Part shown: positions 24,085 through 38,141 of the stretch, piece after piece
How the letters are laid out: every line of letters begins with the position of its first letter
Position numbering within the stretch: the stretch's first letter is position 1
Assembly (NCBI GenBank): GCA_945869845.1
Contig: CAMBRG010000015.1
Location: 1-44,445, forward strand
Source: Opitutus sp. GAS368
Lineage (GTDB): Bacteria > Verrucomicrobiota > Verrucomicrobiia > Opitutales > Opitutaceae
Direction of reading: 5' to 3'
DNA length: 44,445 nt
Program-made: the position numbers and the translations under genes
The notes under the pieces: generated by a model
What the model was told of the DNA's origin: nothing
The model's database searches: none
The model's input: the letters and a program-made list of their open reading frames with translations, nothing else

Positions 24085-24930
24085 TTACTTCGCCGCCAGT
24101 CCCAGCAGCTTAATCAGCACCGAGAAGTCCTCGTTGCCCAAACCCGCCTGCTCGGCCGCCGCCAACCGCTCCCGGACCGTCGCCAACACCGGGAAACCCG
24201 CCGTGCCTTCGATCCCCGAGGCAAGGCGCATGTCCTTAAGCATGTGCTTCACCGAAAACTGCGGCGAAAAATCACCCGACCGTAGCTTCGGCTCTTTCAA
24301 CTTCGCCAGTCCCGACTGACTCGCGTTCCTCGCCAAAGCCCCGAAAAACACGTCATCCGAGATACCGGCGCACCTCGCCAACGTGATCGCCTCGGACAGC
24401 GCCTCCATCTGCGCGGCGATGTTCAGGTTCATGGCGAGCTTCAGCGTCGTCGCCTGCTTGTGGTCGCCGATATGCAGCCGCACGAGCGACACCAGCCCAA
24501 GCAAAGCATCAAGCGCCGCCACCGTCTGGGCGTCTCCACCCACATAATAGACGACCTGCTTCTGCTCCGCCGCCGGCTTGCTCCCGGTAAACGGCGCCTC
24601 GAGGTAACGCGCGCCTCTGGCCGTCACCGCCGCGAAGAACTCTTCGCTGCTCGTCGGATCAATCGTGCTCGATTGGACCACGGTTTTTCCCGGTCCCAGC
24701 GCCGGCAGGATTTGCGCCAGCAACGCCCGCACCGCCGGCGGATCGGCCACGACGATCTGTACCACATCCGAAGCTTGCGCAACCGCCAGCGGGGTTGCCT
24801 GCCACCGGGGAAACGTCGGCTGCGCCGTGCGGTTCCAAGCCCCCGCCAAAACGCCCGCCGCCTCATAGTGACGCGCCCACACCCCGCCGATGATTCCCAG
24901 TCCGAGCACTCCGACCGATTGGTTGTTCAT
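24085..24930 (-). CDS. NAD(P)-dependent beta-hydroxyacid dehydrogenase family protein
   Basis: 281 residues. N-terminal Rossmann domain with VGVLGLGIIGGVWARHY (GxGxxG-type) and a helical C-terminal domain with the catalytic Lys in HIGDHKQATTLKLAMNLN. VQSSTIDPTSSEEFF and YLEAPFTGSKPAAE correspond to the substrate-binding DVSTxxPxxxxxL and DAPVSGG regions of 3-hydroxyisobutyrate dehydrogenase relatives. Likely substrates are short beta-hydroxy acids or succinic-type semialdehydes; the exact one is open. It follows the phosphorylase gene on the same strand by 54 bases and converges on mrdA, with a GC-rich potential hairpin in the 53-base gap. Confidence 0.85.
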   Translation of the reverse strand: MNNQSVGVLGLGIIGGVWARHYEAAGVLAGAWNRTAQPTFPRWQATPLAVAQASDVVQIVVADPPAVRALLAQILPALGPGKTVVQSSTIDPTSSEEFFAAVTARGARYLEAPFTGSKPAAEQKQVVYYVGGDAQTVAALDALLGLVSLVRLHIGDHKQATTLKLAMNLNIAAQMEALSEAITLARCAGISDDVFFGALARNASQSGLAKLKEPKLRSGDFSPQFSVKHMLKDMRLASGIEGTAGFPVLATVRERLAAAEQAGLGNEDFSVLIKLLGLAAK

Positions 24931-24984: not shown

Positions 24985-25683
24985 TCACCCCAAAATCTCC
25001 AGCATCCGTCCAAACAGTCGATTCACCTTGGACTGGTTGTCTTTCACCAGTTCGTGAAACGTCGCGTAGTCGATGGCCGTGCCTTCGATCCCGTTCGCGT
25101 AGTTGTCGACCATCGCGATCGAGTTGTAGCGCAACCCCAGTTCACACGCCAGATCCGCCTCCTGCCCCGCCGTCATTCCCACGACGTCCCCCCAGTGCCG
25201 GATGATCGCGATTTCCGCCTTGGTCTCAAACCGCGGACCCCGCGTCTGCACATAAATCTTCCCGGACCGCACCGTGAATTCCGGCGCGAGCCGGGCGATG
25301 AGTAACGGGATCAAGTTATTCGCGATTCCGGGCGCCCCACCTTTCAGCTCGTCGTCAAAATAGGTCGAGGGTCCGGCCAAGAAGCCCACATAGTCGCTAC
25401 AGGAAACGAGGGTTCCCGGCCCCAGCTCCGGTTTCAGCGAACCCACCGAATTGAGCGACACCACATCCTGAAACCCCAAATCCGCCAGCGCGCGCAGATT
25501 CGCCCGATAGTTGATCATGTGCGGCGGCACCGGCGCCCCGTAGCCGTGCCGGTTGATCAGCGCAAAGTCGCCCTGCGCCTTGTAGGTGACCGGTCCATAT
25601 TTGGTCTCGACCCTTCGCACCTCCCAGGCCGAAAACAGCGCAGACTTCACGATGCTCGTGCCACTGATAAACGCGACTTTCAT
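24985..25683 (-). CDS. Purine nucleoside / methylthioadenosine phosphorylase family protein
   Basis: 232 residues from the ATG at 25683; the longer frame to 25809 overlaps the divergent esterase start and is rejected. PNP_UDP fold: FISGTSIVKSA at the phosphate site, GYGAPVPPHMINYRANLRAL (MTAP-type RHGxxHxxxPxxVNYRANI equivalent), VSLNSVGSLKPELGPG, YVQTRGPRFETKAEI and GMTAGQEADLACELGL. It should phosphorolyse a purine nucleoside; the RGPRFET and NYRANL blocks favour the MTAP branch. The family is usually 260-290 residues, so this is a short form. Divergent from the CE7 esterase across 115 bases. Confidence 0.85.
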   Translation of the reverse strand: MKVAFISGTSIVKSALFSAWEVRRVETKYGPVTYKAQGDFALINRHGYGAPVPPHMINYRANLRALADLGFQDVVSLNSVGSLKPELGPGTLVSCSDYVGFLAGPSTYFDDELKGGAPGIANNLIPLLIARLAPEFTVRSGKIYVQTRGPRFETKAEIAIIRHWGDVVGMTAGQEADLACELGLRYNSIAMVDNYANGIEGTAIDYATFHELVKDNQSKVNRLFGRMLEILG

Positions 25684-25798
25684 CCCGCAACTCCCGTGCC
25701 CCGCCGCGCCGATGACAACGCGGAAAATCTCTGGCCCGTCCCGCCTCCGTCCCCTTTGACCATCGAAAATCGCCACTCCAAAATCGAAAATCTCCAAA

Positions 25799-26773
25799 AT
25801 GCCCCTCATCGATCTGCCGCTCGCCGAACTCCATCACTACTCCGGTCGGAATCCCCGCCCCGCCGACTACGACGCCTACTGGGCTGAAGCCCTTCGCGAG
25901 CTCGATGCCACCGACCCGCGCCCCGAACTCCGCACCTCCACCGTAATCACTCCGCCTCACGTCGAGTGTTTCGACCTCTGGTTCACCGGCGTCGGCGGCG
26001 CCCGGATCTACGCCAAATACCTCCGGCCCAAAAACCGCACCGGGGCGTCTGCAAAAAACCCCGCCGTTCTCCAATTCCACGGCTACTCCGGCCAATCCGG
26101 CGAGTGGATCACCAAGCTCGCCTACGCCGGCGCCGGCTTCTGCGTCGCCGCCATGGATTGCCGCGGCCAAGGCGGGCGCTCCGAGGATCGGGGCGGCGTG
26201 CAGGGCAACACCCTCCGCGGTCACATCATCCGCGGCCTCGACGATCCCGACGCCAAGAAACTTCTCTTCCGCCAAATCTTTCTCGATACCGCCCAACTCG
26301 CCCGCGTCGTCATGGCTTTCCCCGAAGTGGACGCCGCCCGCGTCGGTGCGATGGGTGCCTCCCAAGGCGGTGCCCTCACCTTGGCCTGCGCCGCCCTTGA
26401 GCCGCGGCTCAAACGCATCGCCCCCGTCTATCCGTTTCTCTGCGACTACCAGCGCGTCTGGGAAATGGACCAGGCCAAGGCCGCCTACGAAGAACTCAGC
26501 CTCTACTTCCGCGCCTTCGACCCCCGCCACGAACGCGCAGCCGCTGTCTTCGACAAACTCGGTTACATCGACGTGCAGTTCCTCGCTCCCCGCATCCGGG
26601 CCGAGGTCCTGCTCTACGTCGGCCTGATGGACGCCGTCTGCCCGCCCTCGACCCAGTTCGCCGCCTACAACAATATCACCTCAACGAAGGACCTGGTGAT
26701 CTACCCCGACTTCGCCCACGAGTCCCTCCCCGGCGAAGCCGAGCGCACCTTCAACTTCATGCTCGGTCTCTAG
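25799..26773 (+). CDS. Acetyl xylan esterase / cephalosporin deacetylase (CE7)
   Basis: 324 residues, full length for the family. Motifs: RGQ at 122-124 in DCRGQGG, the nucleophile elbow GASQG at 186-190 with Ser188, Asp278 in VGLMDAVCPP, and His307 in DFAHE. No signal peptide, so it deacetylates imported sugars or oligosaccharides in the cytoplasm. LDLPLAELHHYSG-type N-terminus and the double-Arg RGLDDP loop are typical. It converges on yidR with only 26 bases between stop codons. Its 3' part has a decayed match at 36317-36390, beyond the sugar-acid operon. Confidence 0.93.
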   Translation: MPLIDLPLAELHHYSGRNPRPADYDAYWAEALRELDATDPRPELRTSTVITPPHVECFDLWFTGVGGARIYAKYLRPKNRTGASAKNPAVLQFHGYSGQSGEWITKLAYAGAGFCVAAMDCRGQGGRSEDRGGVQGNTLRGHIIRGLDDPDAKKLLFRQIFLDTAQLARVVMAFPEVDAARVGAMGASQGGALTLACAALEPRLKRIAPVYPFLCDYQRVWEMDQAKAAYEELSLYFRAFDPRHERAAAVFDKLGYIDVQFLAPRIRAEVLLYVGLMDAVCPPSTQFAAYNNITSTKDLVIYPDFAHESLPGEAERTFNFMLGL

Positions 26774-26799
26774 TCTCGAAACGGACTTCCGTTCCGCGC

Positions 26800-28236
26800 T
26801 TAAGACTTTGACCCGGATCTATGAGGAACGAGTTCACGAGCGCGACCTGAGCGGGGAACATTCACGATGAATATCTGGGTGTAGCTTACCTCCCCTGTAA
26901 CGCTCATGGCGGAGTAACATATGAGATTCCCATCTGGCGAAAAGACACAGGCGGTGGGCAACGGCACCTCCTTCGCCTCCGGATCGGTAAGGCGTGTCGT
27001 CGTTCCTGTGGCCATTTCGGTCAGGCAAACACTGCCGTCCATGACATGGGCGACGAACCGACCATCCGGACTCCAGTTGAAGGACGATGCGATGTCGCGG
27101 GAGTTTCTCGTCACCTGCCTGGTCGGCCCGCCGTTGGGTGAAACGGTCCAGAGCTGCACGACGCCGGCGTCATCTTTTTTCAGGAACGCGATGGCCGAGC
27201 CATCCGGGGCGGAGCGGAGCCAATGCCTCGGAGCGGAGACCAATCCAGGATGGCGACTCTGGTTTGTATGAGTCAGACGACGTTGGGAAACACCCAGAGG
27301 CGGGGCGGGTCGGGTTGTGAGCGTGCCGGCCAGCGGCGCGCTTCCTTCGCGCGTCAAATCAGCCGGCAGGTCCACAATAAACGCCTCAATATGTTTTGAT
27401 CCGTCGGCGGCCATCACTTCCCCATGAAAGGCCAGCGCCCGCTCTTGCCGGACTCCATCAACGCGAATGTAGCCGGCGCTTCCGACCCAGGCCTCTTCGG
27501 AGGCGCGGCTGATTTCGTCAGACCCCGGCTTGGGATTGGCTGCGGTGCGGGTGACGAGGACCGAGAACCAGTCGCCGTCGTGATTTCGAGGGAAGTTCTT
27601 CGCCACCTGCACCGGCCCTTGATGAACGGCGACACCGATATTGCGCTGGTTGGGTTCATGGCCTGCCGCCGTGGACGATGCGTCGAGGCGCGCCAGAAGT
27701 TCGTCATCATAGGTGAAGCTCACCCATTTCCCGTCGGGACTGAAAACGTGAAGGTGTGAGCCGCCGCGCAAGGCCCCGGGTGCAAACGGCGGACGATAGT
27801 TCATCGCGTCCAAGGGATGGATTTCGCCCGGGGCGTCGGTCGCGACCACGACGCCGCGGCGCCGACTAAATCCATAGCTCCAGTCCGGGGTTGGGTTTTC
27901 CGGACCGAGTATAAAGACGATGCGTTCTCGGGTGGGGCAAAAGGTCGCGACGCCACAATGGGCCCCATTCCGACTTTGATACAAAATCCGTCGATTGCCA
28001 CTGAGCACATCGACGTCTTCGATCCGCTCACCGTCGAATCGTCCCGGACTGCGAAGATCGTAAACGATGCGACTACCGTCGGGGGACCAGACGTTCGCGT
28101 TGGTCAGCACATGATGATATGCACCAAAGGTGATCTGCCGAACCGCACCGTATTCGGCGGTCGCGCCGAATGCAGCCGGGAGACCCGCAGATACCGTCGG
28201 CAGGATCACCATGAGCGCAAGAAGGCGAAAAAACAC
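26800..28236 (-). CDS. yidR: YidR/DUF3748 beta-propeller protein, related in fold to oligogalacturonate lyase
   Basis: 478 residues with a signal peptide (to about residue 25), so exported. The body follows E. coli YidR along its length: RQITFGAYHHVLTNANVWSP, LSGNRRILYQSRNGAHCGVAT, PENPTPDWSYGFSRRRGVVV, LRGGSHLHVFSPDGKWVSFT, GSDEISRASEEAWVG and RRLTHTNQSRHPGLVSAPRH. WD40/TolB-like blades recur. YidR has no proven activity; the conserved His residues and the fold resemble PL22 oligogalacturonate lyase, so an eliminase role on an acidic sugar is a reasonable guess. It is the last gene of the six-gene operon, 18 bases after the symporter. Confidence 0.85.
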   Translation of the reverse strand: MFFRLLALMVILPTVSAGLPAAFGATAEYGAVRQITFGAYHHVLTNANVWSPDGSRIVYDLRSPGRFDGERIEDVDVLSGNRRILYQSRNGAHCGVATFCPTRERIVFILGPENPTPDWSYGFSRRRGVVVATDAPGEIHPLDAMNYRPPFAPGALRGGSHLHVFSPDGKWVSFTYDDELLARLDASSTAAGHEPNQRNIGVAVHQGPVQVAKNFPRNHDGDWFSVLVTRTAANPKPGSDEISRASEEAWVGSAGYIRVDGVRQERALAFHGEVMAADGSKHIEAFIVDLPADLTREGSAPLAGTLTTRPAPPLGVSQRRLTHTNQSRHPGLVSAPRHWLRSAPDGSAIAFLKKDDAGVVQLWTVSPNGGPTRQVTRNSRDIASSFNWSPDGRFVAHVMDGSVCLTEMATGTTTRLTDPEAKEVPLPTACVFSPDGNLICYSAMSVTGEVSYTQIFIVNVPRSGRARELVPHRSGSKS

Positions 28237-28254
28237 GGGACAAAGCGGGAGCCG

Positions 28255-29814
28255 CTATTTCAATGGCTCCTTGGATTGGTCCCAAACCGTGAGGTTGGTG
28301 AGGTCCCGCGAATTTTTCGGCAGACAGAACGCCGAGAAGCAGCACACGCCAAACATCAGGAGATTGCCCAGAATCGACGTATAGTAGGCGTCGAACACCC
28401 GCGGGAACACGCGGAATTCCACCAGCAAGGCATAGACGGTAAAGGAAACCGTGGCGACGATTCCGATCGAAACCGCCTTGGCGTCCCCAAGGCGAGTCAA
28501 CATGCCGAAGAGAAAAGCCCCGGAAATGCCCCCGCCCAGCAGCGCGGTAATGACGAGCACGAATTCGAGAATGGTTTTGGTCGGCGCGATGTAGAAGAGA
28601 TACGCGCCGACCGCCATCAAGACGGAGACGATCAACGATGTCACCCGCCCCGTGCGCAGGTAGTGGAGGTCGATTTTCCCTGGCACGAGATGACGCCGGT
28701 AGAGGTCGTTGATCCACACCATGCCCGCGGCATTGATGCAGCTGCTGAGGCTGGCCATCGCCGCCGCCAGTGCGGCCGACATCACCAAACCGGCGAGGCC
28801 GTGGGGTAACTGGGTCACGATGAAATGCGGCAGAATACCCTCCGCTTTTTTCGTTCCGCCGAGCACGGCGGTGGAAACGTCCGATGGGAAGTGTTGGTAG
28901 AACACCCAGAGGCTCGTCCCCAAAAACATGAAGCCCGACCAGATGGGCAGGGCGCCGAAGCCAAGCACAAACATCGATTTCCGGGCCTCGCGGGCCGATC
29001 TGGCCGAGCACCAGCGTTGCACCGAATCTTGGTCCAATTGACCGGTGACGTAGTTGGAAACGCCGACGAAAAGCATCATGATCGCGGTCTTCTCCGTCAG
29101 CGAAAAGCCCAGCGGCACCGGTTCAAGCCGACCAGTCGCAGGGTTGAGATCATGGAAAGAAATTTTCTGCGCGGCCCACGCCTCTTGGAAAATCTGGGTC
29201 ACACCACCCGGCAGCGCGTGGATGACAAACCCGATGCAGGCGACGGCGCCCGCCAAAAGCACGACCGTCTGGATGACATCGGTCCAGACGACCGCTTCGA
29301 AGCCGCCTTTGACGGTGTAAAGTGCCGTGGTGCCGGCGGCCAACACGATACAGATCACAACCGACAGCCCCGTCATGGAAGCCAACAGGATGGCCAGGAG
29401 GTAGGTGATCGTCGCCGCCCTCACCAGTTGGGCAATCAGGTAAACCGTCGCGGCGTAGATCGACACCCCTTTGCCGAATCGCAGATAGAGATAGTGGTAG
29501 GCCGATTGGGCGGTGCCTCTTCGGAAGAAAGGAATAAAGGCATATGCCGCCAGCATCACCACCAAGGGAAAGGCCAGCGGAGGCAGCAGTCGAAGCCAGG
29601 CCGTTTTGAAGCTGTCGGCGGGGTAAGCAATGAACGTGACCGAGCTAATAGTGGAGCCGATAAAGCTCAGCCCGATGGCCCATCCGGGGAAATTCCGTCC
29701 CCCGAGAAAATACCGTTCGGTGGTGTGATTACGGCGCGAAAAATACAGTCCGATAGCCAACGTCACTCCCAGATAGGCGAGGACGACCGCGACATCGAGG
29801 GGATGCAACGTCAT
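28255..29814 (-). CDS. Sodium:solute symporter (SSS family)
   Basis: 519 residues with about 13 membrane segments. SSS markers: YFLGGRNFPGWAIGLSFIGS near the N-terminus, GGFEAVVWTDVIQ, VTGQLDQDSVQRWCSARSAR in the middle, and AALAAAMASLSSCINAAGMV. The family imports sugars, sialic acids, vitamins or amino acids with sodium. Being between the sialidase-like and YidR genes (gaps of 36 and 18 bases), it is presumably the inner-membrane importer for the operon's product. It is closer in wording to the sugar/sialate-type SSS than to proline or pantothenate carriers, but substrate is inference. Confidence 0.9.
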   Translation of the reverse strand: MTLHPLDVAVVLAYLGVTLAIGLYFSRRNHTTERYFLGGRNFPGWAIGLSFIGSTISSVTFIAYPADSFKTAWLRLLPPLAFPLVVMLAAYAFIPFFRRGTAQSAYHYLYLRFGKGVSIYAATVYLIAQLVRAATITYLLAILLASMTGLSVVICIVLAAGTTALYTVKGGFEAVVWTDVIQTVVLLAGAVACIGFVIHALPGGVTQIFQEAWAAQKISFHDLNPATGRLEPVPLGFSLTEKTAIMMLFVGVSNYVTGQLDQDSVQRWCSARSAREARKSMFVLGFGALPIWSGFMFLGTSLWVFYQHFPSDVSTAVLGGTKKAEGILPHFIVTQLPHGLAGLVMSAALAAAMASLSSCINAAGMVWINDLYRRHLVPGKIDLHYLRTGRVTSLIVSVLMAVGAYLFYIAPTKTILEFVLVITALLGGGISGAFLFGMLTRLGDAKAVSIGIVATVSFTVYALLVEFRVFPRVFDAYYTSILGNLLMFGVCCFSAFCLPKNSRDLTNLTVWDQSKEPLK

Positions 29815-29850
29815 GGCAGGTTCGCGCCATCTTTATGGCCCAAGGGAGAC

Positions 29851-31239
29851 TCAATACACGAGCGCACGAAAATTCCGGACGCGGTGGAAGGTGATGAGAT
29901 TGGTGTCATGGGCATCGCGATGGGGCGCTTTCGGTTGCCGCACATTGGCATCACCCGTGCGGCTCAAGATGACCAGATCCTCGCCGTCGATATCCATGCC
30001 GCAATAGTGGTAGCTCTCGCGTGGCGTCGCGCCCTTGGCGACCAAACCGGCAAAGACCCAATCCATGAGATTCTTGGAGTAGTGCAAAACGAGGCGATCA
30101 CGTTGATCGAGCGGAAGTCCAAAGCGGGATTCGGGCATGGTGCCCGGGCGGCGCATACTGTCGGTCACTTGGTTGCTCAACAGCCAATAAAGACCGGTTC
30201 GAGGATCTTGGAGCACATGAAATTTAATGTTCCCGCCCGGCAGGGGGACAAAGACCATTGCCGTTCCAGCCGGCGTGCGTTCCAGATCGAAGCGCATCTC
30301 GCCCTCTCCATTTTCCACCACTTTTGACAGCATCCCGAAGTTCGAGCGGTGAACATCACCGCGGGCCAGGATGTGCAAAGTGCGTCGTTTGGGGTCGAAA
30401 AACTGGTGATTCGGATCGGTGATCTGGACGACATAAGGTTCATGCCAGCCGATGCGATTGGCGACGATGCGCGGATTGTCGGCCAAGGGCTGGGCCGCGT
30501 TACGATCCGGGACCGGAAAAAACGGGATGCCAAAATAGTCCAGCTTGGTCTCATCCACCAAATCCCGAAAAGCCATTTGCCGCTGGGATTGCACCCAGAC
30601 CGAGGCGTCCATCAGGTTCGCGCCTTCGGGCGCTCGAAACATGACCGGTGCCAGCGTGCTCACAAAATAGCCGCGATAGCCGAGATCGGTGCGAAGCATC
30701 ATCGGTGCATAGAGGTGTCCATTGGCGACCAGCACATTGGACGCACCCATGGCCCATTGATCGTTTTCTGTGAGCGCCGAGAGTTCACTCCAAGTTTCCC
30801 CGCGATCGGCCGACCGTGCGATCATGATGCGGCCGCAGTTGCCCAGGAGATAAACGCGACCGGAATCCGCGAAAAGGCGGGCGTGGGTGAACGGCAGGGC
30901 CGCCCGCCTTGTCCAGCTTTTGCCGCCGTCGTCCGACGTAGCAACCGCAGTTTGCAGTCTGTTGTAATCCGGCGGAAAATGCGGCCGGCGTCCAATCGAC
31001 CCCGGCAATTGGCCTACACCGGCTCCGAAATGGTCGAATGACGCCACCAGCCTGTTTCCCGAAAGAACCAGAATGCTCGGGGTTCCGAGAAAGATGGATT
31101 CAGGGTTGGGCGAGCGCGCGACCACCACTCCCTCTTGTGCCAACGGCTTGACCGACCAGAGAGGCGCCTCGGCGCGAAGAAGGCCGGCGAGACTGCCCAG
31201 CAAGGCCAGGTATCCAATGCGGAGCAGTCGGTGGGGCAT
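29851..31239 (-). CDS. Exported sialidase-superfamily (BNR repeat) protein
   Basis: 462 residues with a signal peptide (MPHRLLRIGYLALLGSLAGLLRA). Asp-box repeats are visible: SDDGGKSWTRR and SADRGETWSEL, with a weaker one near RDRLVLHYSKNLMDW. These mark six-bladed sialidase folds. The arginine triad and Tyr-Glu pair of true neuraminidases cannot be confirmed by eye, so exo-sialidase activity is uncertain; related proteins act on other acidic sugars or only bind glycans. It follows the TonB receptor by 38 bases and precedes the symporter by 36. Confidence 0.78.
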   Translation of the reverse strand: MPHRLLRIGYLALLGSLAGLLRAEAPLWSVKPLAQEGVVVARSPNPESIFLGTPSILVLSGNRLVASFDHFGAGVGQLPGSIGRRPHFPPDYNRLQTAVATSDDGGKSWTRRAALPFTHARLFADSGRVYLLGNCGRIMIARSADRGETWSELSALTENDQWAMGASNVLVANGHLYAPMMLRTDLGYRGYFVSTLAPVMFRAPEGANLMDASVWVQSQRQMAFRDLVDETKLDYFGIPFFPVPDRNAAQPLADNPRIVANRIGWHEPYVVQITDPNHQFFDPKRRTLHILARGDVHRSNFGMLSKVVENGEGEMRFDLERTPAGTAMVFVPLPGGNIKFHVLQDPRTGLYWLLSNQVTDSMRRPGTMPESRFGLPLDQRDRLVLHYSKNLMDWVFAGLVAKGATPRESYHYCGMDIDGEDLVILSRTGDANVRQPKAPHRDAHDTNLITFHRVRNFRALVY

Positions 31240-31277
31240 AGTAGCTGACGATTTTACCAGGAGGTCGCGCTGATCGT

Positions 31278-33584
31278 TTAGAACTTGGCGCCGAGGGACA
31301 GCCGAAACTCGCGGGGATTGTTCACGCGGACAATGAAGAAGGTTTCGTCGAGCAGATTGCTAACCTGCAAATCGGCTTTGTAGCGACCGTTTGACCAGGC
31401 ATACGATGCACCCACGTCGATCCGCTTTTGGACCTTGTCCAGGGGTTGCCGCCCAAAGTTACTGACTTCCGAGCTTGGAACCGGCCCGATGATGTTGGTG
31501 CCAGCTCGCACGGAGAAGCCATCTTTTCTGCCAGGATGGAAGGAGTATTTGGCGAACAGATTTGTGCTCCAATCCGGGACGAAACGAATCGGGCGAGTAT
31601 CGCCGGCGACCACCGTGGTTACATTAGGCTGCGCGGTATCGTTGATGGAACCCGAGGCGAGCACCGACAGGTTTTTCGTGACCTGGCCGATTAGCTCAAC
31701 CTCCCAGCCCCTCGAGGTATCGCCGTCCGTAAGGAAGCGGCGCGTCGCGAGCACAGTCTGGCCGCTGCCAACCGGGGACGCTACGTTGATGGATTCATTG
31801 TCCACCGTGCCGGTGCGAACGAGTTCGAAGTAGGCCAAGGAAAAATAGAGGCGGTTGGAGAAAAGAGTCCCTTTCAGACCGAACTCCGTGGATTTGGTGG
31901 ATGGGTCGCCGACGATCACTTCGAGCGAGCGCGGGTCGCCGGCGTTCAAGCGGCCCCAAACGAGAGTCGTTGCCGCCGGATCGATCTGTTCGCTGCGCGA
32001 AGCGAAGAGCGAGAGGTTTTCAAGCACCTTGAACGTGCCGCCAAAACGCGTGGAGGCTGGCGGATGACTGTCAGTCTCGGTTTTCGGAATGGTCGTATTG
32101 AGATAGTTGGTGAGCGAACCTTGGGCGCGCGTATCGCGCCATCCGTAAACCAACGAGATTCGCTCCTTCCACACGCTCACCTCCTGCTGAATGTAATAGC
32201 TGAAGGTCTCCGATTTCGTCCGCGTGTTGGACAGTTGCCCGACGTTCACCCGGTCGATGGGGGCGTTGGCCCCGACGGGCAGGAACTGCGGGTTCCGTAG
32301 ATTGATAAAGCGCGCTGCGCCGATAATCGGGTAGCGGCGGCCGATATTCTCCTGCTGATGCGCCGTGAGGGCATATCCAGCCATCGTGCTGAACTTGAGG
32401 TCCAGCGGAGCCTTGTTCCACCCATAACGCACCAAGACGTCGCCGACCGCGTTCCAGCGCCACTCGGCGATCTTGTTCAAATCGTAGAGCAGCGCCTTGT
32501 ATAAGCCGTTGGCATTGGTCGGGTCGAACGGGTTGGTGTCTGGCAGATTACCGCCGGAGTTGTAAAACTCCTGCTCCTGAGTGACCGAGATGTAGCTGAC
32601 GATTTGGCGGAAGTCCACGTGGTCGCTAAACCGATGCGTGAACGTGGCCATAACGTTGGCAACGTCCTCCTGAAGTTCGGATGGCGAGAGATAAAAATCC
32701 CACGGCAGATTCAACGCGGTGATCGGATCGGTATCTCTACCGATGGTCGCGGGGAAAAGCCGGCGAAACTTGGCGGGCATGATGGTAAAGCCCTGGCCGT
32801 AGGCTGCGATAATGCTCTTTGTGCTCAGCACTTCTGCGTTGACGTTCAGTTCGGTCTTATCGGATGGCTTGAAACGTAACGAGGGAAAGAACCGGTAGAA
32901 ACGCTGGTCGTTTGGCTCGCGCACAAACACGTTCGAGTCTTCGGCCGCCACGACGAAGCGCGCGGCCACGTCGTTGGAAAGCGGCAGGTTGTGGTCCGCC
33001 TCGAAACGATAGAAACTGTCGTTTCCGACGATACCGCGCAACTCGCTGAACGTCTTGTTGAGCAACGGTTTCTTGAGGACGAAATTCATGGCCCCCGACG
33101 CGTCGGCGCGCCCAAGAACGGCGGAGGGCACGCCCTTGATGACTTCCATGCGGTCGTAGCCGACCAAGTCCCGTCGATAAGCCGGCCCCAGCACGCCCTC
33201 AACGTAGGCGTTTCGGTTCTCAAAACCGCGCAGGATATACATCCCGGGGTCGATGCCCGCGACGCTCGCATTGCGCACGGACGCGTTGGAAACGTATTTG
33301 ATGGCATCGTCCTGATTGAAGGAGAACGTATCTTTTAGGAACTCGCTCGTGAGCACATTCACCGTTTGCGGAATATCGATGAGTCGTTTGTTCGAACGTG
33401 ACGCCACGGTCGCCGAGTCCATACGGTAGCCGTCGTCAGGTGCGGCGAGGACGCTGAACGGCGACAAGACGACGGTTTCCTCGGTCGTGCCAGGTGCGGG
33501 AGCCTGACCAAACAAGGAAGCCGATACGGAACACGCGAGCAAAGAGAGCACTAGCGGCAAACGATAGGCAGATGGGATATTCAT
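31278..33584 (-). CDS. TonB-dependent outer-membrane receptor
   Basis: 768 residues. Signal peptide (about 1-27), then EETVVLSPFSVLAAPDDGYR, the plug-leading motif frequent in Opitutaceae receptors, and the plug domain DIPQTVNVLTSEFLKD...YDRMEVIKGVPSAVLGRADASGAMNFV. A 22-strand barrel follows, ending in the aromatic C-terminus REFRLSLGAKF. Plug wording is of the siderophore-receptor (FhuE/FpvA-like) subtype, but in Verrucomicrobiota that subtype is widely used for glycans. Context with the sialidase-like protein, lyase and symporter argues for import of an acidic sugar or oligosaccharide rather than iron. Confidence 0.9.
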   Translation of the reverse strand: MNIPSAYRLPLVLSLLACSVSASLFGQAPAPGTTEETVVLSPFSVLAAPDDGYRMDSATVASRSNKRLIDIPQTVNVLTSEFLKDTFSFNQDDAIKYVSNASVRNASVAGIDPGMYILRGFENRNAYVEGVLGPAYRRDLVGYDRMEVIKGVPSAVLGRADASGAMNFVLKKPLLNKTFSELRGIVGNDSFYRFEADHNLPLSNDVAARFVVAAEDSNVFVREPNDQRFYRFFPSLRFKPSDKTELNVNAEVLSTKSIIAAYGQGFTIMPAKFRRLFPATIGRDTDPITALNLPWDFYLSPSELQEDVANVMATFTHRFSDHVDFRQIVSYISVTQEQEFYNSGGNLPDTNPFDPTNANGLYKALLYDLNKIAEWRWNAVGDVLVRYGWNKAPLDLKFSTMAGYALTAHQQENIGRRYPIIGAARFINLRNPQFLPVGANAPIDRVNVGQLSNTRTKSETFSYYIQQEVSVWKERISLVYGWRDTRAQGSLTNYLNTTIPKTETDSHPPASTRFGGTFKVLENLSLFASRSEQIDPAATTLVWGRLNAGDPRSLEVIVGDPSTKSTEFGLKGTLFSNRLYFSLAYFELVRTGTVDNESINVASPVGSGQTVLATRRFLTDGDTSRGWEVELIGQVTKNLSVLASGSINDTAQPNVTTVVAGDTRPIRFVPDWSTNLFAKYSFHPGRKDGFSVRAGTNIIGPVPSSEVSNFGRQPLDKVQKRIDVGASYAWSNGRYKADLQVSNLLDETFFIVRVNNPREFRLSLGAKF

Positions 33585-33621
33585 TGGGTTTTTGAGGTTA
33601 GGAAAGCAGAGAGTGATAAAC

Positions 33622-34638
33622 CTAGTCGGGCAGCCGCCATAGCGTGCCAGCGGGGCGGGAAACTGAGCTGAAATCCGGCGGCAGCAGGAGTTCGGGGTAT
33701 CGCCGTTCGATGAATCCGCGGATGCGTTTTTGCAGCTCCGTCGGAACAGGAATCGCGGGACGCCTCGGAGGGCCGACCCGCAGAAACCCGAAAGCCTCGA
33801 TCACGGCCTTATGGCGCGCTTGGTGGCTGTAGCGTTCTAGCCCCTCAAGCTCCGAAGGGAAAATGTGCGGGCGCCCCTGCCCCATCTTCATCCGGGCGGT
33901 GAATTCGGTGAAATCTGATTGAGCGCGCTCCGCTTCATCGTATTTGCCAAGTGTGCACAGGTCCAAAATTTCCAGCACCTTGTGCGGCATCCAGCATAGC
34001 TGCAGGCTGCCCACACCTACCGCGCGTTGACGGTGCAATTCAACCAACCAACCGATGTCGGTAGAACTCATATGAGCCAGCGGCCCTTTTTGATGCATCG
34101 TGCGCCAGACGTTGAAATCCCAGTGTGCCTCCTTACTTCCAATAAAGTTGGGCAGGTGGGTGAGTTGCTGGTAGATATCCACGGTGTAGGGCTGACGCAC
34201 CCAATCATAGTGGTAAATGATCACGCCGATCGTCGGGCAGGCCCGGCAAAGCTGCTCCCAGAATCGGAGTAATTCTTCCGGGGTGAGGGGCGTGTAGTAA
34301 GGCTGGATAACAAGGATCGCATCGATTCCCTCTTCCATGGAAATGCGGCCGCGAGTTATCGCGTCATCGGTCGAAAGGCCGACTGCACCCATGATCGAGT
34401 AAACTTTCGTGCCCTTGGTTTCCTCGCGCAGGATCACTGCGATGCGTCGGATCTCTTGCAGCGACAGGGTGTAGAATTCACCCGACGTTCCGGCGAGAGC
34501 GATGCCGTCAACGCCGCAACGGATCAGCTTGCGCAGGTTGGAGCGCAGGGCCTCTTCGTCTAATGCAAAATTATCGGTGAACGGCGTCGGCGGGTAGGCA
34601 ATGACGCCTCGGTAGAGGTCGGGGGTTAACATCGACAC
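33622..34638 (-). CDS. DHDPS/N-acetylneuraminate lyase superfamily protein
   Basis: 338 residues, slightly longer than the usual 290-310, with a C-terminal extension rich in Arg/Pro. TIM-barrel class I aldolase: AGTSGEFYTLS (GxxGE motif at about 50-54), Tyr144 in IIYHYDWVRQP and the Schiff-base Lys169 in FIGSKEAHWD. The superfamily includes N-acetylneuraminate lyase, KDG aldolase, DHDPS and 5-keto-4-deoxyglucarate dehydratase. GTSGEFYTLS and the lack of the NxP motif after the Tyr separate it from plain DHDPS. In this operon it probably cleaves a 2-keto-3-deoxy acid to pyruvate. The frame opens at GTG 34638; the ATG two codons later (34632) is an equally likely start. Confidence 0.85.
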   Translation of the reverse strand: MSMLTPDLYRGVIAYPPTPFTDNFALDEEALRSNLRKLIRCGVDGIALAGTSGEFYTLSLQEIRRIAVILREETKGTKVYSIMGAVGLSTDDAITRGRISMEEGIDAILVIQPYYTPLTPEELLRFWEQLCRACPTIGVIIYHYDWVRQPYTVDIYQQLTHLPNFIGSKEAHWDFNVWRTMHQKGPLAHMSSTDIGWLVELHRQRAVGVGSLQLCWMPHKVLEILDLCTLGKYDEAERAQSDFTEFTARMKMGQGRPHIFPSELEGLERYSHQARHKAVIEAFGFLRVGPPRRPAIPVPTELQKRIRGFIERRYPELLLPPDFSSVSRPAGTLWRLPD

Positions 34639-34679
34639 GACGATTCACGGCGCGCGCCCCGCGGCAATTCGCCCGTAGC

Positions 34680-34697
34680 TTTCACAGTAAAGTGAAA
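34680..34697. promoter_or_regulatory. Candidate operator before the lyase gene
   Basis: TTTCACAGTAAAGTGAAA is an 18-base imperfect palindrome (seven of nine pairs match) lying in the 65-base gap between the LacI gene and the lyase gene. Size and symmetry fit a LacI-family operator, possibly acting on an internal promoter of the operon. No experimental support. Confidence 0.35.
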
Positions 34698-34703
34698 CCG
34701 CGC

Positions 34704-35774
34704 TTACGCTTTTTGAGGGTCGGGTGAATCCGACTTAGCCTGGCGCGTTCGGCCAAGGCTACGGCCCTCGTGCCATTTGCCTTGGATGAGAATGTGGCGG
34801 GCATTTTCGGGCACGCCGAATTCGTTGCGGTGAATCATGCCGACGACGACATCGACGGCGGCGGCTCCCACCAGCTCCGGGTGCTCGTCGATGCCGGAAT
34901 AACGCACCTGTCGGTAAGGGATGTTTGTCAGCGCCAATCCCGCAGACGCCATTCCCGGGGGCCGCGCGGCCTTCAACCAGCTTTCGATCAGCGCGGCAGA
35001 GCCCGTTTCGGAAACGATGACTTCGGGGCGCTGGGCAACATACCACTTCACGAATTCATCGAACACGAGTTGCTCCGGAAAATGAGGGGGCAACGCGCCT
35101 GGTCCGGGTGCGGAGTGCATCCCCACCAGATAGCCCGCGAGATAATTGTGCTCCACGCGATCATCGCGCGATGCGGGCATGACTAGGCCGATGCGCTCGC
35201 ATTTCCTGCCCAACAATTCCTGAATGAGCGCGACCATGTTGCGGAACTGGTGGTTCATCACGAGATGAAGCTTCGGTTCGGCCAGGGAATAGCCCAAGCT
35301 TACCGCCGCGAGGCCGGACCAATCGAACTCAATCCGGGTGCGCGGCTGGGGCTGTGGCGCCACAACCAGACCTTGGATATTCCTGGCCGCCATGATCTGT
35401 CTCAGTCGCGAGCGGGATAACCCCGGTTCATTCAGCCAAAAATGGGCGAGTTCGTAGCCCAGCTCTTGAGCCCTTTGCCGAGCTCCGGCGTGATAGCCCA
35501 CCTGTTGCCCGATGGCCCAGCCCTTCTCGGTCGGGTAATTGGTCAGCCAGCCCAGCATACCTTGAAACGCTTGGGGCCTCAGTCCATTCCGATATGCCGC
35601 CAAGGCGCTCAACATCGGATCCGGCCGATAACCGAGCTTTCGAGCCATAGCCTTTACCCTCAACCGGGTCTCTTTTGGAATCGAAGCATGCTCCCGCAAC
35701 GCAAGCGATACGGTGGTGTGCGAAACACCGAGTCGCTTGGCCAAGATTTTTAGGGTGAGTCGGGGCTGCTGCAC
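34704..35774 (-). CDS. LacI-family transcriptional regulator
   Basis: 356 residues from GTG 35774. The N-terminal helix-turn-helix and hinge are clear: RLTLKILAKRLGVSHTTVSL, ALREHASIPKETRLRVKAMA, RKLGYRPDPMLSALAAYR. The C-terminal periplasmic-binding-protein-like effector domain follows (IQGLVVAPQPQ, ERIGLVMPASRDDRVEHNYLAGYLVGM, SGIDEHPELVGAAAVDVVVGMIHRNEFG). The first gene of the operon it most likely controls, 65 bases before the lyase. The effector is presumably the imported sugar acid or a breakdown product. A palindromic region upstream could allow self-control. Confidence 0.92.
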   Translation of the reverse strand: MQQPRLTLKILAKRLGVSHTTVSLALREHASIPKETRLRVKAMARKLGYRPDPMLSALAAYRNGLRPQAFQGMLGWLTNYPTEKGWAIGQQVGYHAGARQRAQELGYELAHFWLNEPGLSRSRLRQIMAARNIQGLVVAPQPQPRTRIEFDWSGLAAVSLGYSLAEPKLHLVMNHQFRNMVALIQELLGRKCERIGLVMPASRDDRVEHNYLAGYLVGMHSAPGPGALPPHFPEQLVFDEFVKWYVAQRPEVIVSETGSAALIESWLKAARPPGMASAGLALTNIPYRQVRYSGIDEHPELVGAAAVDVVVGMIHRNEFGVPENARHILIQGKWHEGRSLGRTRQAKSDSPDPQKA

Positions 35775-35803
35775 TCGATTATTTCGGATGAAGCAAGTCG
35801 CTT

Positions 35804-35833
35804 GTTTAGCAATCGCAAAGCTTGCAGCTAAAC
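35804..35833. promoter_or_regulatory. Candidate operator region upstream of the LacI gene
   Basis: GTTTAGC (35804-35810) and GCTAAAC (35827-35833) form a perfect 7-bp inverted repeat with a 16-base spacer that itself holds GCAA-AGC-TTGC. It lies 30 bases before the LacI start, where an autoregulatory operator would be expected. The rest of the gap to 36010 shows nothing I can support. Confidence 0.35.
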
Positions 35834-36010
35834 GCGCATGAGTTTGGAGGGACCGAAAGAAAGTGACATGGGATGGCAGGAATGAGCCAAGGAGCTAAAT
35901 GGCCGTCGTGATCACTACCCGTAATGCCCTCGGGAGCAGCACACCGGTTCCGGCGAACGAACCGAACCCATCGACCTGCACGAGCGCAGCCTTTCAGCCG
36001 CCCGCTCCTA

Positions 36011-36271
36011 TCACAACCCCGCCACCTTCTCCAACCGCCGCGCCAGCTCCACATCCAGCGCGGTCACCTTGCCACCCGCGTCGTGCGTGCTCAGCCGCAC
36101 CGCGACCGTTTTATAGACATTCATCCACTCCGGATGATGGTTCAGTTCCTCGGCCTCGAATCCCGCGCGCACCATAAACGCCAGCGCCGCGCGGAAATCC
36201 GCGAACTCAAAAGTCTTCGCCAGCCCATCGTGCTCCGACGCCCAGCCCGGAAGCCACGCCAGCTCCGCCAC
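36011..36271 (-). CDS. 4a-hydroxytetrahydrobiopterin dehydratase (pterin carbinolamine dehydratase), N-terminus uncertain
   Basis: 86 residues as listed from GTG 36271. The PCD core is intact: WLPGWASEHDGLAKTFEFAD, FMVRAGFEAEELNHHPEWMN, VYKTVAVRLSTHDAGGK and TALDVELARRL. The HHPEW-NVY block carries the two catalytic His. The enzyme recycles the pterin cofactor after aromatic amino acid hydroxylation. The frame continues upstream as EKILSTKTIV, which matches the first helix of the family, but I find no ATG, GTG or TTG for it, and a decayed esterase fragment begins about 20 bases further. The gene may have lost its own start and now use the internal GTG. Confidence 0.78.
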   Translation of the reverse strand: MAELAWLPGWASEHDGLAKTFEFADFRAALAFMVRAGFEAEELNHHPEWMNVYKTVAVRLSTHDAGGKVTALDVELARRLEKVAGL

Positions 36272-36316
36272 AATTGTCTTCGTCGAAAGGATTTTCTCAC
36301 GGCCCCACGCCCCTCC

Positions 36317-36390
36317 GGCCTCATGGACCCCATCTGCCCCCTTCGACCCAATTCTCCGCCTACAACAAAATCACCTCAAAGGAGGATCTC
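36317..36390 (+). pseudogene. Frameshifted fragment of a CE7 acetyl xylan esterase gene
   Basis: GLMDPICP (36317-36340), then after loss of one base PSTQFSAYNKITSKEDL (36340-36390). This matches residues 275-299 of the intact esterase at 25799 (GLMDAVCPPSTQFAAYNNIT and on to DL). By hand alignment 63 of 75 columns are identical at the DNA level, with a single one-base gap. Nothing of the esterase before or after it is convincing. It lies on the plus strand, as does the intact gene, on the far side of the sugar-acid operon. Confidence 0.75.
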
Positions 36391-36420
36391 GGCCGGCGCG
36401 CAGCGCCTAACCCAACCGAG

Positions 36421-36470
36421 TTGGAGCGGCGGCGCCCTCGTCGCCGTCAAAGGCCGGCACGCGACGCCCC
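36421..36470. repeat. Candidate intergenic palindromic element
   Basis: A non-coding, very GC-rich stretch containing GGAGCGGCGGCGCCCTCG followed by TCGCCGTC, an imperfect palindrome (CGGCG...CGCCG around a GCGCCCTCGT centre), with GCCGGC and GCGACGC nearby. It has the look of dispersed palindromic units found between genes of GC-rich genomes, but only one copy is in the window, so this is a weak call. Confidence 0.2.
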
Positions 36471-36479
36471 CGCAGCCGT

Positions 36480-38141
36480 TCACGGTGGCGGCAAGCCGTG
36501 TTTTTTGGCCAAGCGCACTTGGTCTGCGGCGGGCAGAAAACAGGTCATTGAAAAGAAAAATTTAGGGTAGGCCTTCCAGTCGAAACCGTGACTATCCTCT
36601 CGATAATATAGAAACCCCATGAGCCGCCAGTTCTGCCCGTCACCCAGTTCGAGCGCGATGTTTTCGTCCGTGACCGAGATATAGGGGTCCCGGATCAGCT
36701 CCCGCAGTTCATCGTAGGAGCGCACCGCCGGCATCGCGCAGAGCAATGCCGCGACCAGACCCAACCAACGTGGGCGCAACCGCGCCGAAACCGCCGCAAG
36801 CAGAAACACGAACGCCAGCCCGAAGATCGGCATCGCCTTCGACATCGTCGCGCGCTCGTCCCCCCCGACTCTCACCAGCGCCAAAAAACACACCGCGACC
36901 ATCAACGGCAGCCGCAGGTCGCGTTCGCTCTTCCAGTCGTGCCACGCCGCGCTCACGAACAAAATCACCATCACGGCAAGCGCCGCCAACCCCACCGGAT
37001 TCTTCCACGGATTCTGATCCCATGGCACCATCGCCTGGTAAAACATCCACGCATACGGCGAGGGGCCGCCGAAAATTCCCAGCAGCTGGGCCAACACTTC
37101 GTCGTTCCAGACCAACCCCGTCGAACGGATGAATTCATCGCCCGAAAGCAGCCGAACCGCGACGCTCAACCACACCGCCAGCGCCAAGCTCACGGCCGTC
37201 AGCCGGCCCGGCCGTTCCCGGCCCAGCGCCCGGAAACCATGGCGCCACGCAAAAAATACGCCTCCCACCACCGTCAGCGCCCCCGCGAGTCCGAACCCGA
37301 CGAGCATGAACTGCGGACTGTAAAGCCCCCCGCACAAAACCAGCATCAGCACAGTCAGCGCCAGCGCCTCGGTCCGCGCCGGCCCCGGTTCGGCCGTCAT
37401 CACCGCCCCAAAGGTCAGGCCCAACAACAGTCCAACGATGCACCCCGCCGCGAAGCCCGCGATCCAGTTCAACACCGGCAACGGATTAAACACCATGACC
37501 GCCGCCACCGCCACGGCTGGCAGCCAATTTCCAAATCCGAACGCCCCCGGCATCCGCCCGAATCCAATCGCCAGCGTTGCCATCAGCGCCACCGGTAACG
37601 CCAGGTAGGCCTTCACCGCGTCGATTCCCGCGCTGGCACCGAAACAAGCAATCGCCTCAAGCACCAGCGGCCGATCCCGCGTCGCCAGCACATACCATGT
37701 CCAGTTATACCGCATCGGGCTCGTCACAAGATCCGGCAACTCCCGCGTGGAATGCGTGGTGAGCCAGTCCGCCACCTGCACATAACCCCAAAGGTCGGTC
37801 CCGTGGGCGCCGAACACGTAGGCCCCTTCGTAGGCATAGCAGCGGTGCAACAGCACCATCGCGACCGTGCCCGTCACCACGAGCATCGTCGCCGCCTCGG
37901 TCCACTGCCGACCCCGCACCACCGACCAGAGCCCCGCCGCATAGAAGATCCAAAACAAGGGCCGCACCGCATTCGCCGACAGTCCCACGATCCAAGGCAC
38001 GCTGCACAGCACCAGAAAAAGCGCCCAGCCCGCGAGCATTGCCACCAACGGCTGCTTGGACGTCACGAGCCGCGTCCCGATACTCCATGCACTGAGACAA
38101 ACCACAAATACCGCCGCCCAAATCGGTAAAACCGTGCTCAT
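36480..38141 (-). CDS. Multi-spanning membrane protein, possible GT-C glycosyltransferase
   Basis: 553 residues from the ATG at 38141; the open frame runs 37 codons further without a membrane or family signal. About 12-13 hydrophobic segments (e.g. LPIWAAVFVVCLSAWSIG, MLAGWALFLVLCSVPWIVG, WLPAVAVAAVMVFNPLPVLN). A loop after the third or fourth helix holds RCYAYEGAYVFGAHGTDLWG, and a soluble C-terminal part (about 480-553) ends VRLAKKHGLPPP. The layout, with acidic residues in the first large loop, suits lipid-linked sugar transferases or related surface-polymer enzymes, but I do not recognise a defined family. It is divergent from another large membrane protein at 38262, suggesting a shared role in glycan assembly. 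Confidence 0.65.
   Translation of the reverse strand: MSTVLPIWAAVFVVCLSAWSIGTRLVTSKQPLVAMLAGWALFLVLCSVPWIVGLSANAVRPLFWIFYAAGLWSVVRGRQWTEAATMLVVTGTVAMVLLHRCYAYEGAYVFGAHGTDLWGYVQVADWLTTHSTRELPDLVTSPMRYNWTWYVLATRDRPLVLEAIACFGASAGIDAVKAYLALPVALMATLAIGFGRMPGAFGFGNWLPAVAVAAVMVFNPLPVLNWIAGFAAGCIVGLLLGLTFGAVMTAEPGPARTEALALTVLMLVLCGGLYSPQFMLVGFGLAGALTVVGGVFFAWRHGFRALGRERPGRLTAVSLALAVWLSVAVRLLSGDEFIRSTGLVWNDEVLAQLLGIFGGPSPYAWMFYQAMVPWDQNPWKNPVGLAALAVMVILFVSAAWHDWKSERDLRLPLMVAVCFLALVRVGGDERATMSKAMPIFGLAFVFLLAAVSARLRPRWLGLVAALLCAMPAVRSYDELRELIRDPYISVTDENIALELGDGQNWRLMGFLYYREDSHGFDWKAYPKFFFSMTCFLPAADQVRLAKKHGLPPP

Follow-up and report, generated by a model that had tools for sequence, protein, structure and literature searches.

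We analyzed a 44,445-nucleotide contig of Opitutus sp. GAS368 (Opitutaceae, Verrucomicrobiota; CAMBRG010000015.1 of assembly GCA_945869845.1), hereafter the window, in which six minus-strand open reading frames (ORFs) fill positions 26800-35774. They encode a LacI-family regulator, a lyase of the dihydrodipicolinate synthase (DHDPS) superfamily, a TonB-dependent receptor, a sialidase-fold protein, a sodium:solute symporter (SSS) and the beta-propeller protein YidR. With a probability of about 0.6, this operon serves, under LacI control, to take up and cleave a 2-keto-3-deoxy (ulosonic-type) sugar acid. In the route that we infer, with each reaction, the export and the substrate predicted, the TonB receptor would bring a glycan fragment across the outer membrane, an exported sialidase-fold protein would release or trim the acidic sugar, and an exported YidR would work on that sugar in the periplasm. 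After import by the SSS symporter, it would be cleaved by the DHDPS-type lyase through a Schiff base to pyruvate and an aldehyde. A sugar-acid pathway had been suggested in the initial annotation of the window, and it is supported both by the gene content of the operon and by the DHDPS-type company that YidR keeps elsewhere. In Pfam, DUF3748/YidR is still entered without a known function. The present results would narrow its role to sugar-acid handling beside a 2-keto-3-deoxy acid aldolase and name partners for testing it; the operon and the YidR pairings together point to a testable, little-described pathway.

Organization of the operon

From the YidR end to the lacI end, consecutive genes are separated by 18, 36, 38, 37 and 65 bases. 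The ORF coordinates, and the gaps computed from them, bear out the one-strand arrangement and the gap lengths given in the initial annotation, and from this spacing alone we infer that the six genes are transcribed as one unit. The identities assigned to the six products likewise agree with Pfam and NCBIfam matches and, for the sialidase fold, with a structure model (Table 1). The symporter scored 186.9 bits with TIGR00813, barely above the cut-off of 184, and the TonB receptor shows a distant likeness to siderophore receptors that is far under the NCBIfam cut-off. The source assembly has 3.62 Mb and is 83% complete.

A promoter scan of 26500-36480 returned a single site, located within the YidR gene, with 2.9 sites expected by chance. 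An imperfect inverted repeat upstream of lacI, spotted by eye, may be an operator; it is absent from the output of the repeat scan, which gave two other pairs. Relatives of the regulator (50-52%) lie near the same lyase subfamily in three other genomes (G064, G178 and G240); no matching palindrome was shown upstream of these relatives, and no operator shared upstream of lacI is demonstrable. Separately, TTTAGC half-sites occur at 35804-35833 of the window and upstream of the TonB gene of a second locus in the same genome (L171, described below); they may represent a shared operator half-site.

Table 1. Features of the operon region in the window.
Feature	Position	Strand	Basis or remark
YidR (DUF3748) beta-propeller, 478 aa	26800..28236	-	PF12566, E 3.5e-50; hydrophobic, signal-peptide-like N-terminus
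SSS-family sodium:solute symporter, 519 aa	28255..29814	-	PF00474 (SSF), E 2.3e-44
Sialidase-fold (Asp-box) protein, signal-like N-terminus, 462 aa	29851..31239	-	Weak BNR match, structure model, Asp boxes
TonB-dependent outer-membrane receptor, 768 aa	31278..33584	-	Plug, PF07715, E 8.2e-8
DHDPS-superfamily lyase, separate subfamily c20, 338 aa	33622..34638	-	PF00701, E 1.7e-29
LacI-family regulator, 356 aa	34704..35774	-	PF00356, E 9.1e-10
Imperfect inverted repeat GTTTAGC..GCTAAAC, possible operator	35804..35833	-	Upstream of lacI; spotted by eye

The lyase and the sialidase-fold protein

The window lyase retains the Schiff-base Lys, the Tyr and the carboxylate-binding GTxGE loop (positions K165, Y137 and T47/S48), features common to most of the superfamily rows aligned. 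At NanA positions T167, G189, D191, E192 and S208, which we take to be the sugar-binding positions of N-acetylneuraminate lyase, it has A, S, D, I and L, with D191 alone kept. In a phylogenetic tree, the window lyase and proteins of G064, G178 and G240 form a clade of their own (100/100), here called c20, which stands apart from NanA, YagE/YjhH, DapA and the DHDPS subfamily usual near YidR. The nearest rows outside this clade are YjhH and YagE, both very distant and on long branches. The best PDB match is PhdJ, presumably a hydratase-aldolase.

Among 282 genomes, the window lyase has three strong orthologues (52-67% identity), those of G064, G178 and G240; two weak matches (32-33% identity) were excluded from this count. 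Near the three orthologues, a LacI regulator of the same type is present in all cases, a related TonB receptor in two and a BNR propeller in two. The expectation that this lyase would accompany yidR in other genomes did not hold for these three further members of the subfamily, none of which has YidR nearby in the sequence retrieved around it (the contigs of G178 and G240 measure only 14.0 and 15.5 kb). A contig scan with the window lyase alone gave 63 pattern matches and zero confirmed relatives. Amidohydro_2 proteins are encoded near two of the orthologues (L038:12577-13701 and L039:10618-11694) and are possible sugar lactonases.

We consider it improbable that the DHDPS-type protein, instead of being an aldolase, acts like KdgD as a dehydratase in an oxidative pathway for pentoses or aldarates. 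PRK03620, the model for 5-dehydro-4-deoxyglucarate dehydratase, gave its best NCBIfam score (90.2 bits, cut-off 278), and the Amidohydro_2 neighbors of the two orthologues, if lactonases, would suit such a pathway, but neither a semialdehyde dehydrogenase nor any other oxidative gene was recognized in the operon by Pfam and NCBIfam.

The 462-residue sialidase-fold protein matched the Pfam families BNR (E 1.6e-4) and BNR_2 (E 2.8e-3), both under the curated cut-off. The best PDB matches of its AlphaFold2 model (mean pLDDT 79.2) were sialidases and arabinanase-type propellers, with E about 1e-11 and TM scores of 0.4-0.5 by query length. In an alignment of 17 sialidase-fold proteins, two Asp boxes are invariant. 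GH33 sialidases carry an Arg triad that begins with a RIP motif; a GTPSI/GSPSI-type sequence occupies roughly the expected RIP position, as judged by eye.

These data bear on whether the operon is a sialic-acid locus made up of a sialidase, a sialate symporter and an N-acetylneuraminate lyase, which we regard as highly improbable. A sialidase fold, a lyase of the DHDPS/NAL (N-acetylneuraminate lyase) superfamily and an SSS symporter are all present. Similarly, the nan operons (nanA, nanT, nanK, nanE, nanQ) combine a DHDPS-fold lyase with a symporter, and nan systems include an extra propeller protein, NanM. In contrast to nan operons, the window operon has no kinase and its lyase lacks the NanA residues T167, G189, E192 and S208; both N-acetylneuraminate lyase models of NCBIfam scored far under cut-off (58.5 bits versus 382 and 68.6 versus 281). 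The first invariant Arg of the sialidase-fold alignment is R293, and none is invariant before it, although R142 is nearly so. The initial annotation had noted that the sialate epimerase gene is missing, and indeed no PF07221 (N-acylglucosamine 2-epimerase) match was found in the 83%-complete genome.

YidR and its gene company

Window YidR scored 169.6 bits with PF12566 (cut-off 27) and is 48% identical to E. coli YidR in our alignment. Its AlphaFold2 model is an all-beta protein with a beta-propeller fold (mean pLDDT 84.8). Since the motifs RGG[ST]HxH and PRHW are invariant or nearly invariant in YidR alignments, the sequences suggest that YidR is an enzyme. At least 502 relatives exist in the genome collection searched; among the matches listed, the closest YidR proteins in named records come from metagenome-assembled genomes (MAGs) labelled Opitutus and Opitutaceae, the closest being 80% identical and on an Opitutus MAG contig. 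Matches in a viral structure library were limited to generic propellers, tail proteins and repeat proteins. Four records of a plasmid collection (NZ_OL790696, NZ_CP134663, NZ_CP141089 and CP125156; 4.8-5.4 Mb) carry yidR and look like misfiled chromosomes.

The initial annotation had likened YidR to oligogalacturonate lyase. Foldseek matches of the YidR model included S9-peptidase propellers, TolB and oligogalacturonate lyase, the last with a TM score of 0.65 by target length at 7 Å rmsd, one propeller among many. Additionally, the HxH of YidR followed by SPDG resembles, by eye, the HPHP..SPD stretch of PL22-like proteins. These likenesses would favor an eliminating lyase and an operon for unsaturated uronates. 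PL22 oligogalacturonate lyase is indeed a beta-propeller of similar overall fold, but neither window nor E. coli YidR gave a PF14583 match at E up to 10, even though this profile was matched in the E. coli control. A profile comparison of YidR with three PL22-like proteins aligned a different, generic repeat alone (probability 18.7). The PL22 assignment was rejected. Furthermore, no KduI-like or unsaturated-glucuronyl-hydrolase-like enzyme was recognized among the annotated neighbors (one representative per cluster), and E. coli yidR lies beside an aldonate operon. The uronate explanation is quite improbable.

We consider an anomer- or lactone-handling step, comparable to that of NanM and NanQ in sialate use, or a glycosidase step likelier for YidR than a lyase step. 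NanQ is annotated in the nan operon record; NanM and NanQ are presumably sialate anomerases present in different compartments. The occurrence of YidR both with and without a signal-like N-terminus recalls this pair, as an analogy only. Signals were assessed by a rough hydrophobicity count, used qualitatively only: 52 of 119 rows passed, many of the failures had an unfound start motif or a value slightly under the threshold, and some contigs were counted twice.

YidR had also been described as lacking a known function, which does not agree with published data. As reported in PMC5293155, growth of an E. coli yidR mutant is poor on gluconate and on galacturonate, the metabolite pattern of the mutant comes closest to that of dgoT, and dgoT, dgoD, dgoR and dgoK are among the ten genes that correlate best with yidR, which is also co-expressed with dgo genes. 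In RefSeq, E. coli YidR is named galacturonate catabolism protein. In E. coli K-12, yidR lies near dgoTDAKR with cbrA between, and in one Klebsiella aerogenes and one Enterobacter hormaechei record the order is dgoR-K-A-D-T-yidR, with yidR 51 bases after dgoT and on its strand. The enterobacterial dgo operon thus resembles the window operon in that YidR has as neighbors an acid transporter and an aldolase for 2-keto-3-deoxy acids. It differs in having a dehydratase, a sugar-acid kinase and another type of aldolase, in lacking the TonB receptor and the sialidase-fold protein, and in that E. coli YidR has no signal-like N-terminus.

PF12566 matched in 33 of the 282 genomes, 32 of them over the cut-off. 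We compared 38 YidR loci, including that of the window, after dropping a weak match in G039 (below cut-off, one stop); short contigs are among them, so that on average 14.5 kb of 20 kb was available. Genes were called by codon usage, and neighbor functions come mostly from one representative per cluster, for which reason single neighbor genes are mostly left unnamed here. A DHDPS-type gene lies within 10 kb of YidR in 20 of the 38 loci, compared to 0.73 loci expected by chance from a density of 1.33 DHDPS genes per Mb (204 genes across 32 genomes totalling 152.9 Mb); because the loci are related by descent, a binomial value for this excess is not a true probability. Within the same distance we found a BNR propeller in 26 loci, an SSS or DgoT-like transporter in 22, a TonB receptor in 21, LacI in 13, FG-GAP in 12, an FGGY kinase in 11 and a sulfatase in 8.

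Seven loci with DHDPS near YidR do not carry an Opitutaceae label (L088, L099, L112, L113, L116, L125 and L127). L099 has YidR-MFS-DHDPS with gaps of 10 and 2 bases, L113 has the same order, and L127 has YidR-kinase-DHDPS. In many YidR loci the MFS partner comes closest to TIGR00893, the D-galactonate transporter model, though it scores under the cut-off, and YagE is the closest PDB chain to the usual neighbor aldolase. In 80 named YidR loci, the best 80 of at least 502 confirmed relatives, with weak matches included and some contigs shared with the 38 loci, we counted DHDPS in 17, BNRa in 21, BNR2 in 12, SSS in 13, MFS in 11 and FGGY in 7. Based on these results, distant lineages share a module in which YidR is accompanied by an acid transporter (SSS or DgoT-like MFS) and by a 2-keto-3-deoxy acid aldolase. 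The association of YidR with a DHDPS-type gene in other genomes, which the initial annotation had suggested checking, is supported. Conservation of the gene set is only partly upheld: the set recurs in mixed form, and the exact six-gene set was not found again. The locus is of a real, recurring kind, a variant of known sugar-acid utilization loci. Since the company of YidR, an acid transporter and an aldolase spans distant lineages, one of which often adds a ribulose-type kinase, the function of YidR is directly testable.

An ordinary locus for scavenging glycans, with co-localized genes for several sugars of one polysaccharide and with YidR as a general accessory that shares no single pathway with the lyase, would account for the failure to find the exact set again and for the sulfatases, esterases, GH32-like, GH78-like and FG-GAP proteins that differ between loci. 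We think it unlikely, as the short runs of L099 and L113 consist of YidR, transporter and aldolase only.

Other proteins were also seen at these loci. PATR-repeat profile matches lie near YidR in six of the 38 loci (L042, L050, L051, L052, L054 and L063), with the Pfam PATR family checked for L050 and, in another cluster, L041. A pilin-like protein adjoins YidR in L042.

Candidate substrates and neighboring genes

The FGGY protein of the YidR clusters is a pentulose kinase of TIGR01315 (675 bits, cut-off 408.7, for one representative). Its distribution was examined in 39 chosen genomes, namely 24 of the 32 that have an above-cut-off YidR (own genome included) and 15 YidR-less family members from outside the genus; five YidR-less genomes of the same genus were left out. 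The kinase is present in 12 of the 24 genomes with YidR and one of the 15 without (Fisher P 0.006), and each of these 12 has it no more than 12.2 kb from a DHDPS gene. L127, L129 and L146 have an AraB-type ribulokinase instead (574-631 bits with PRK04123, cut-off 428; under the TIGR01234 cut-off). AraA and AraD were not recognized in these three loci, where part of the neighbors was annotated, and both are present in L130. Ribulose-type kinases of two FGGY subfamilies are thus found near YidR and the aldolase, an association not described in the initial annotation. An isomerase with a fucose-isomerase C-terminal domain lies in the clusters of G074 and G018, where aldolase, D-arabinose-type isomerase and ribulose kinase occur together, and it adjoins YidR in L102.

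A pyruvate aldolase followed by a ribulose kinase would imply a pentose as the second product and hence an eight-carbon 2-keto-3-deoxy acid as substrate, of which 3-deoxy-D-manno-octulosonic acid (Kdo) is the abundant example. Because ribulose-type kinases recur in these clusters, our results suggest an eight-carbon ulosonic acid such as Kdo as the leading single candidate. The route would run from Kdo to pyruvate and D-arabinose, then to D-ribulose and D-ribulose 5-phosphate. It would need the activities of a Kdo aldolase (EC 4.1.2.23) and of Kdo hydrolases. Kdo aldolase activity has long been known, and Kdo hydrolases belong to family GH33. PMC12307932 reports that AraB is able to phosphorylate D-ribulose, and PMC4016182 that NAL enzymes act with D-arabinose, less well than with D-mannose.

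The wider proposal that the YidR clusters of Opitutaceae, other Verrucomicrobiota and Planctomycetota constitute a Kdo catabolic pathway, with YidR an anomerase or lactonase for 2-keto-3-deoxy acids, is tentative and unlikely to hold. In such a pathway exported propellers would free and condition the acid, and a DHDPS-fold Kdo aldolase, the isomerase and a TIGR01315 or AraB-type kinase would follow. This role of YidR would explain its place in the enterobacterial D-galactonate operon. Among the titles and abstract openings listed from an open-access library, with most subscription journals outside its scope, none described a Kdo catabolic gene cluster, and many of the papers concern Kdo hydrolases of lipopolysaccharide. 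Kdo is found in Gram-negative lipopolysaccharide and plant rhamnogalacturonan II, and if it were the substrate, the clusters would encode the use of a sugar present in both.

A six-carbon acid of the galactonate, gluconate or galacturonate kind is a possible though doubtful alternative. YidR would prepare such an acid, for instance as a lactonase, import would follow, and the lyase would split a 2-keto-3-deoxy-hexonate into pyruvate and glyceraldehyde. Its standing comes from gluconate/idonate-type genes, at YidR loci and near a second cluster on contig C4 of the same genome, and from the enterobacterial galactonate context, that is, from yidR directly after dgoT in the Enterobacter and Klebsiella records. 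The growth defect of the yidR mutant on gluconate and galacturonate (PMC5293155) agrees with it, as do the TIGR00893-like MFS partner and the likeness of the usual neighbor aldolase to YagE; YjhH and YagE are also the rows nearest to the window lyase clade, though very distant. However, no aldonate dehydratase or 2-keto-3-deoxygalactonate kinase was recognized among the annotated neighbors (one representative per cluster), whereas pentulose kinases were, and the best PDB match of the window lyase is PhdJ, not YagE.

Several observations weigh against a ulosonic-acid unit, and against the Kdo route in particular. The window operon has neither kinase nor isomerase, and its lyase belongs to a different subfamily of the tree from that beside the kinases. 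An amidohydrolase lies near two of the three strong lyase orthologues, and the G178 orthologue (L038:9203-10198) has Asn at the catalytic Tyr position; all four c20 members aligned retain a neighboring Tyr (HYDW or NYDW). G027 has the kinase and no YidR, with no match to three DHDPS profiles in the 19.5 kb fetched, and the kinase of L130 belongs to an L-arabinose set. The kinase and the aldolase may act on different sugars of one polysaccharide. The isomerase is not a specific marker, since homologues occur in 31 of the 39 genomes, including nine of the 15 without YidR; it is inside the YidR cluster in only two of the 38 loci, and that of the own genome is surrounded by seemingly unrelated genes. 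At many planctomycete YidR loci all of these partners are absent, an argument against a fixed YidR partnership, and YidR of E. coli and of several planctomycete rows starts near the core without a signal, by the rough test. Besides the E. coli galactonate genes, a GntP-like permease, a KduD/gluconate-5-dehydrogenase-like short-chain dehydrogenase/reductase (SDR) and an idonate-dehydrogenase-like Zn enzyme are found within 10 kb of YidR in 3, 4 and 5 of the 38 loci, all assigned below model cut-off, and a GntP fragment and an idonate-dehydrogenase-like Zn enzyme lie near the own C4 cluster.

That cluster (L171) has the composition LacI-TonB-SSS-FG-GAP-DHDPS-BNR-kinase, with the lyase gene at positions 53743-54588 of C4. 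It resembles the window operon in having LacI, TonB receptor, SSS, DHDPS and BNR genes on one strand, and differs in its pentulose kinase, its FG-GAP protein, its other DHDPS subfamily and the absence of YidR. In the own genome, C4 carries one aldolase together with the kinase, contig C72 carries the isomerase, and the window has only the other lyase. The window operon may feed the C4 kinase-aldolase pathway, or it may act on another acid; its lyase, being of a separate subfamily, is compatible with both.

Some further genes were observed at these loci. A BRO-N domain protein, of a kind usually viral or mobile, is encoded directly after the pentulose kinase gene on C4 (L171:7980-8831). In L072, L074 and L075, all of the same genus, the GntP-like permease, SDR and Zn enzyme genes lie on the opposite strand beside the YidR clusters. 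In a Pirellula MAG (L130:3043-11302), araB-araD-araA and an SSS symporter precede YidR with one NAD-dependent epimerase gene between. Beside the window operon lie genes for a 3-hydroxyisobutyrate/tartronate-semialdehyde-reductase-like protein (24085-24930, minus strand), an MTAP-like phosphorylase (24985-25809, minus strand) and an AXE1 acetyl xylan esterase-family protein (25799-26773, plus strand; E 9.7e-122).

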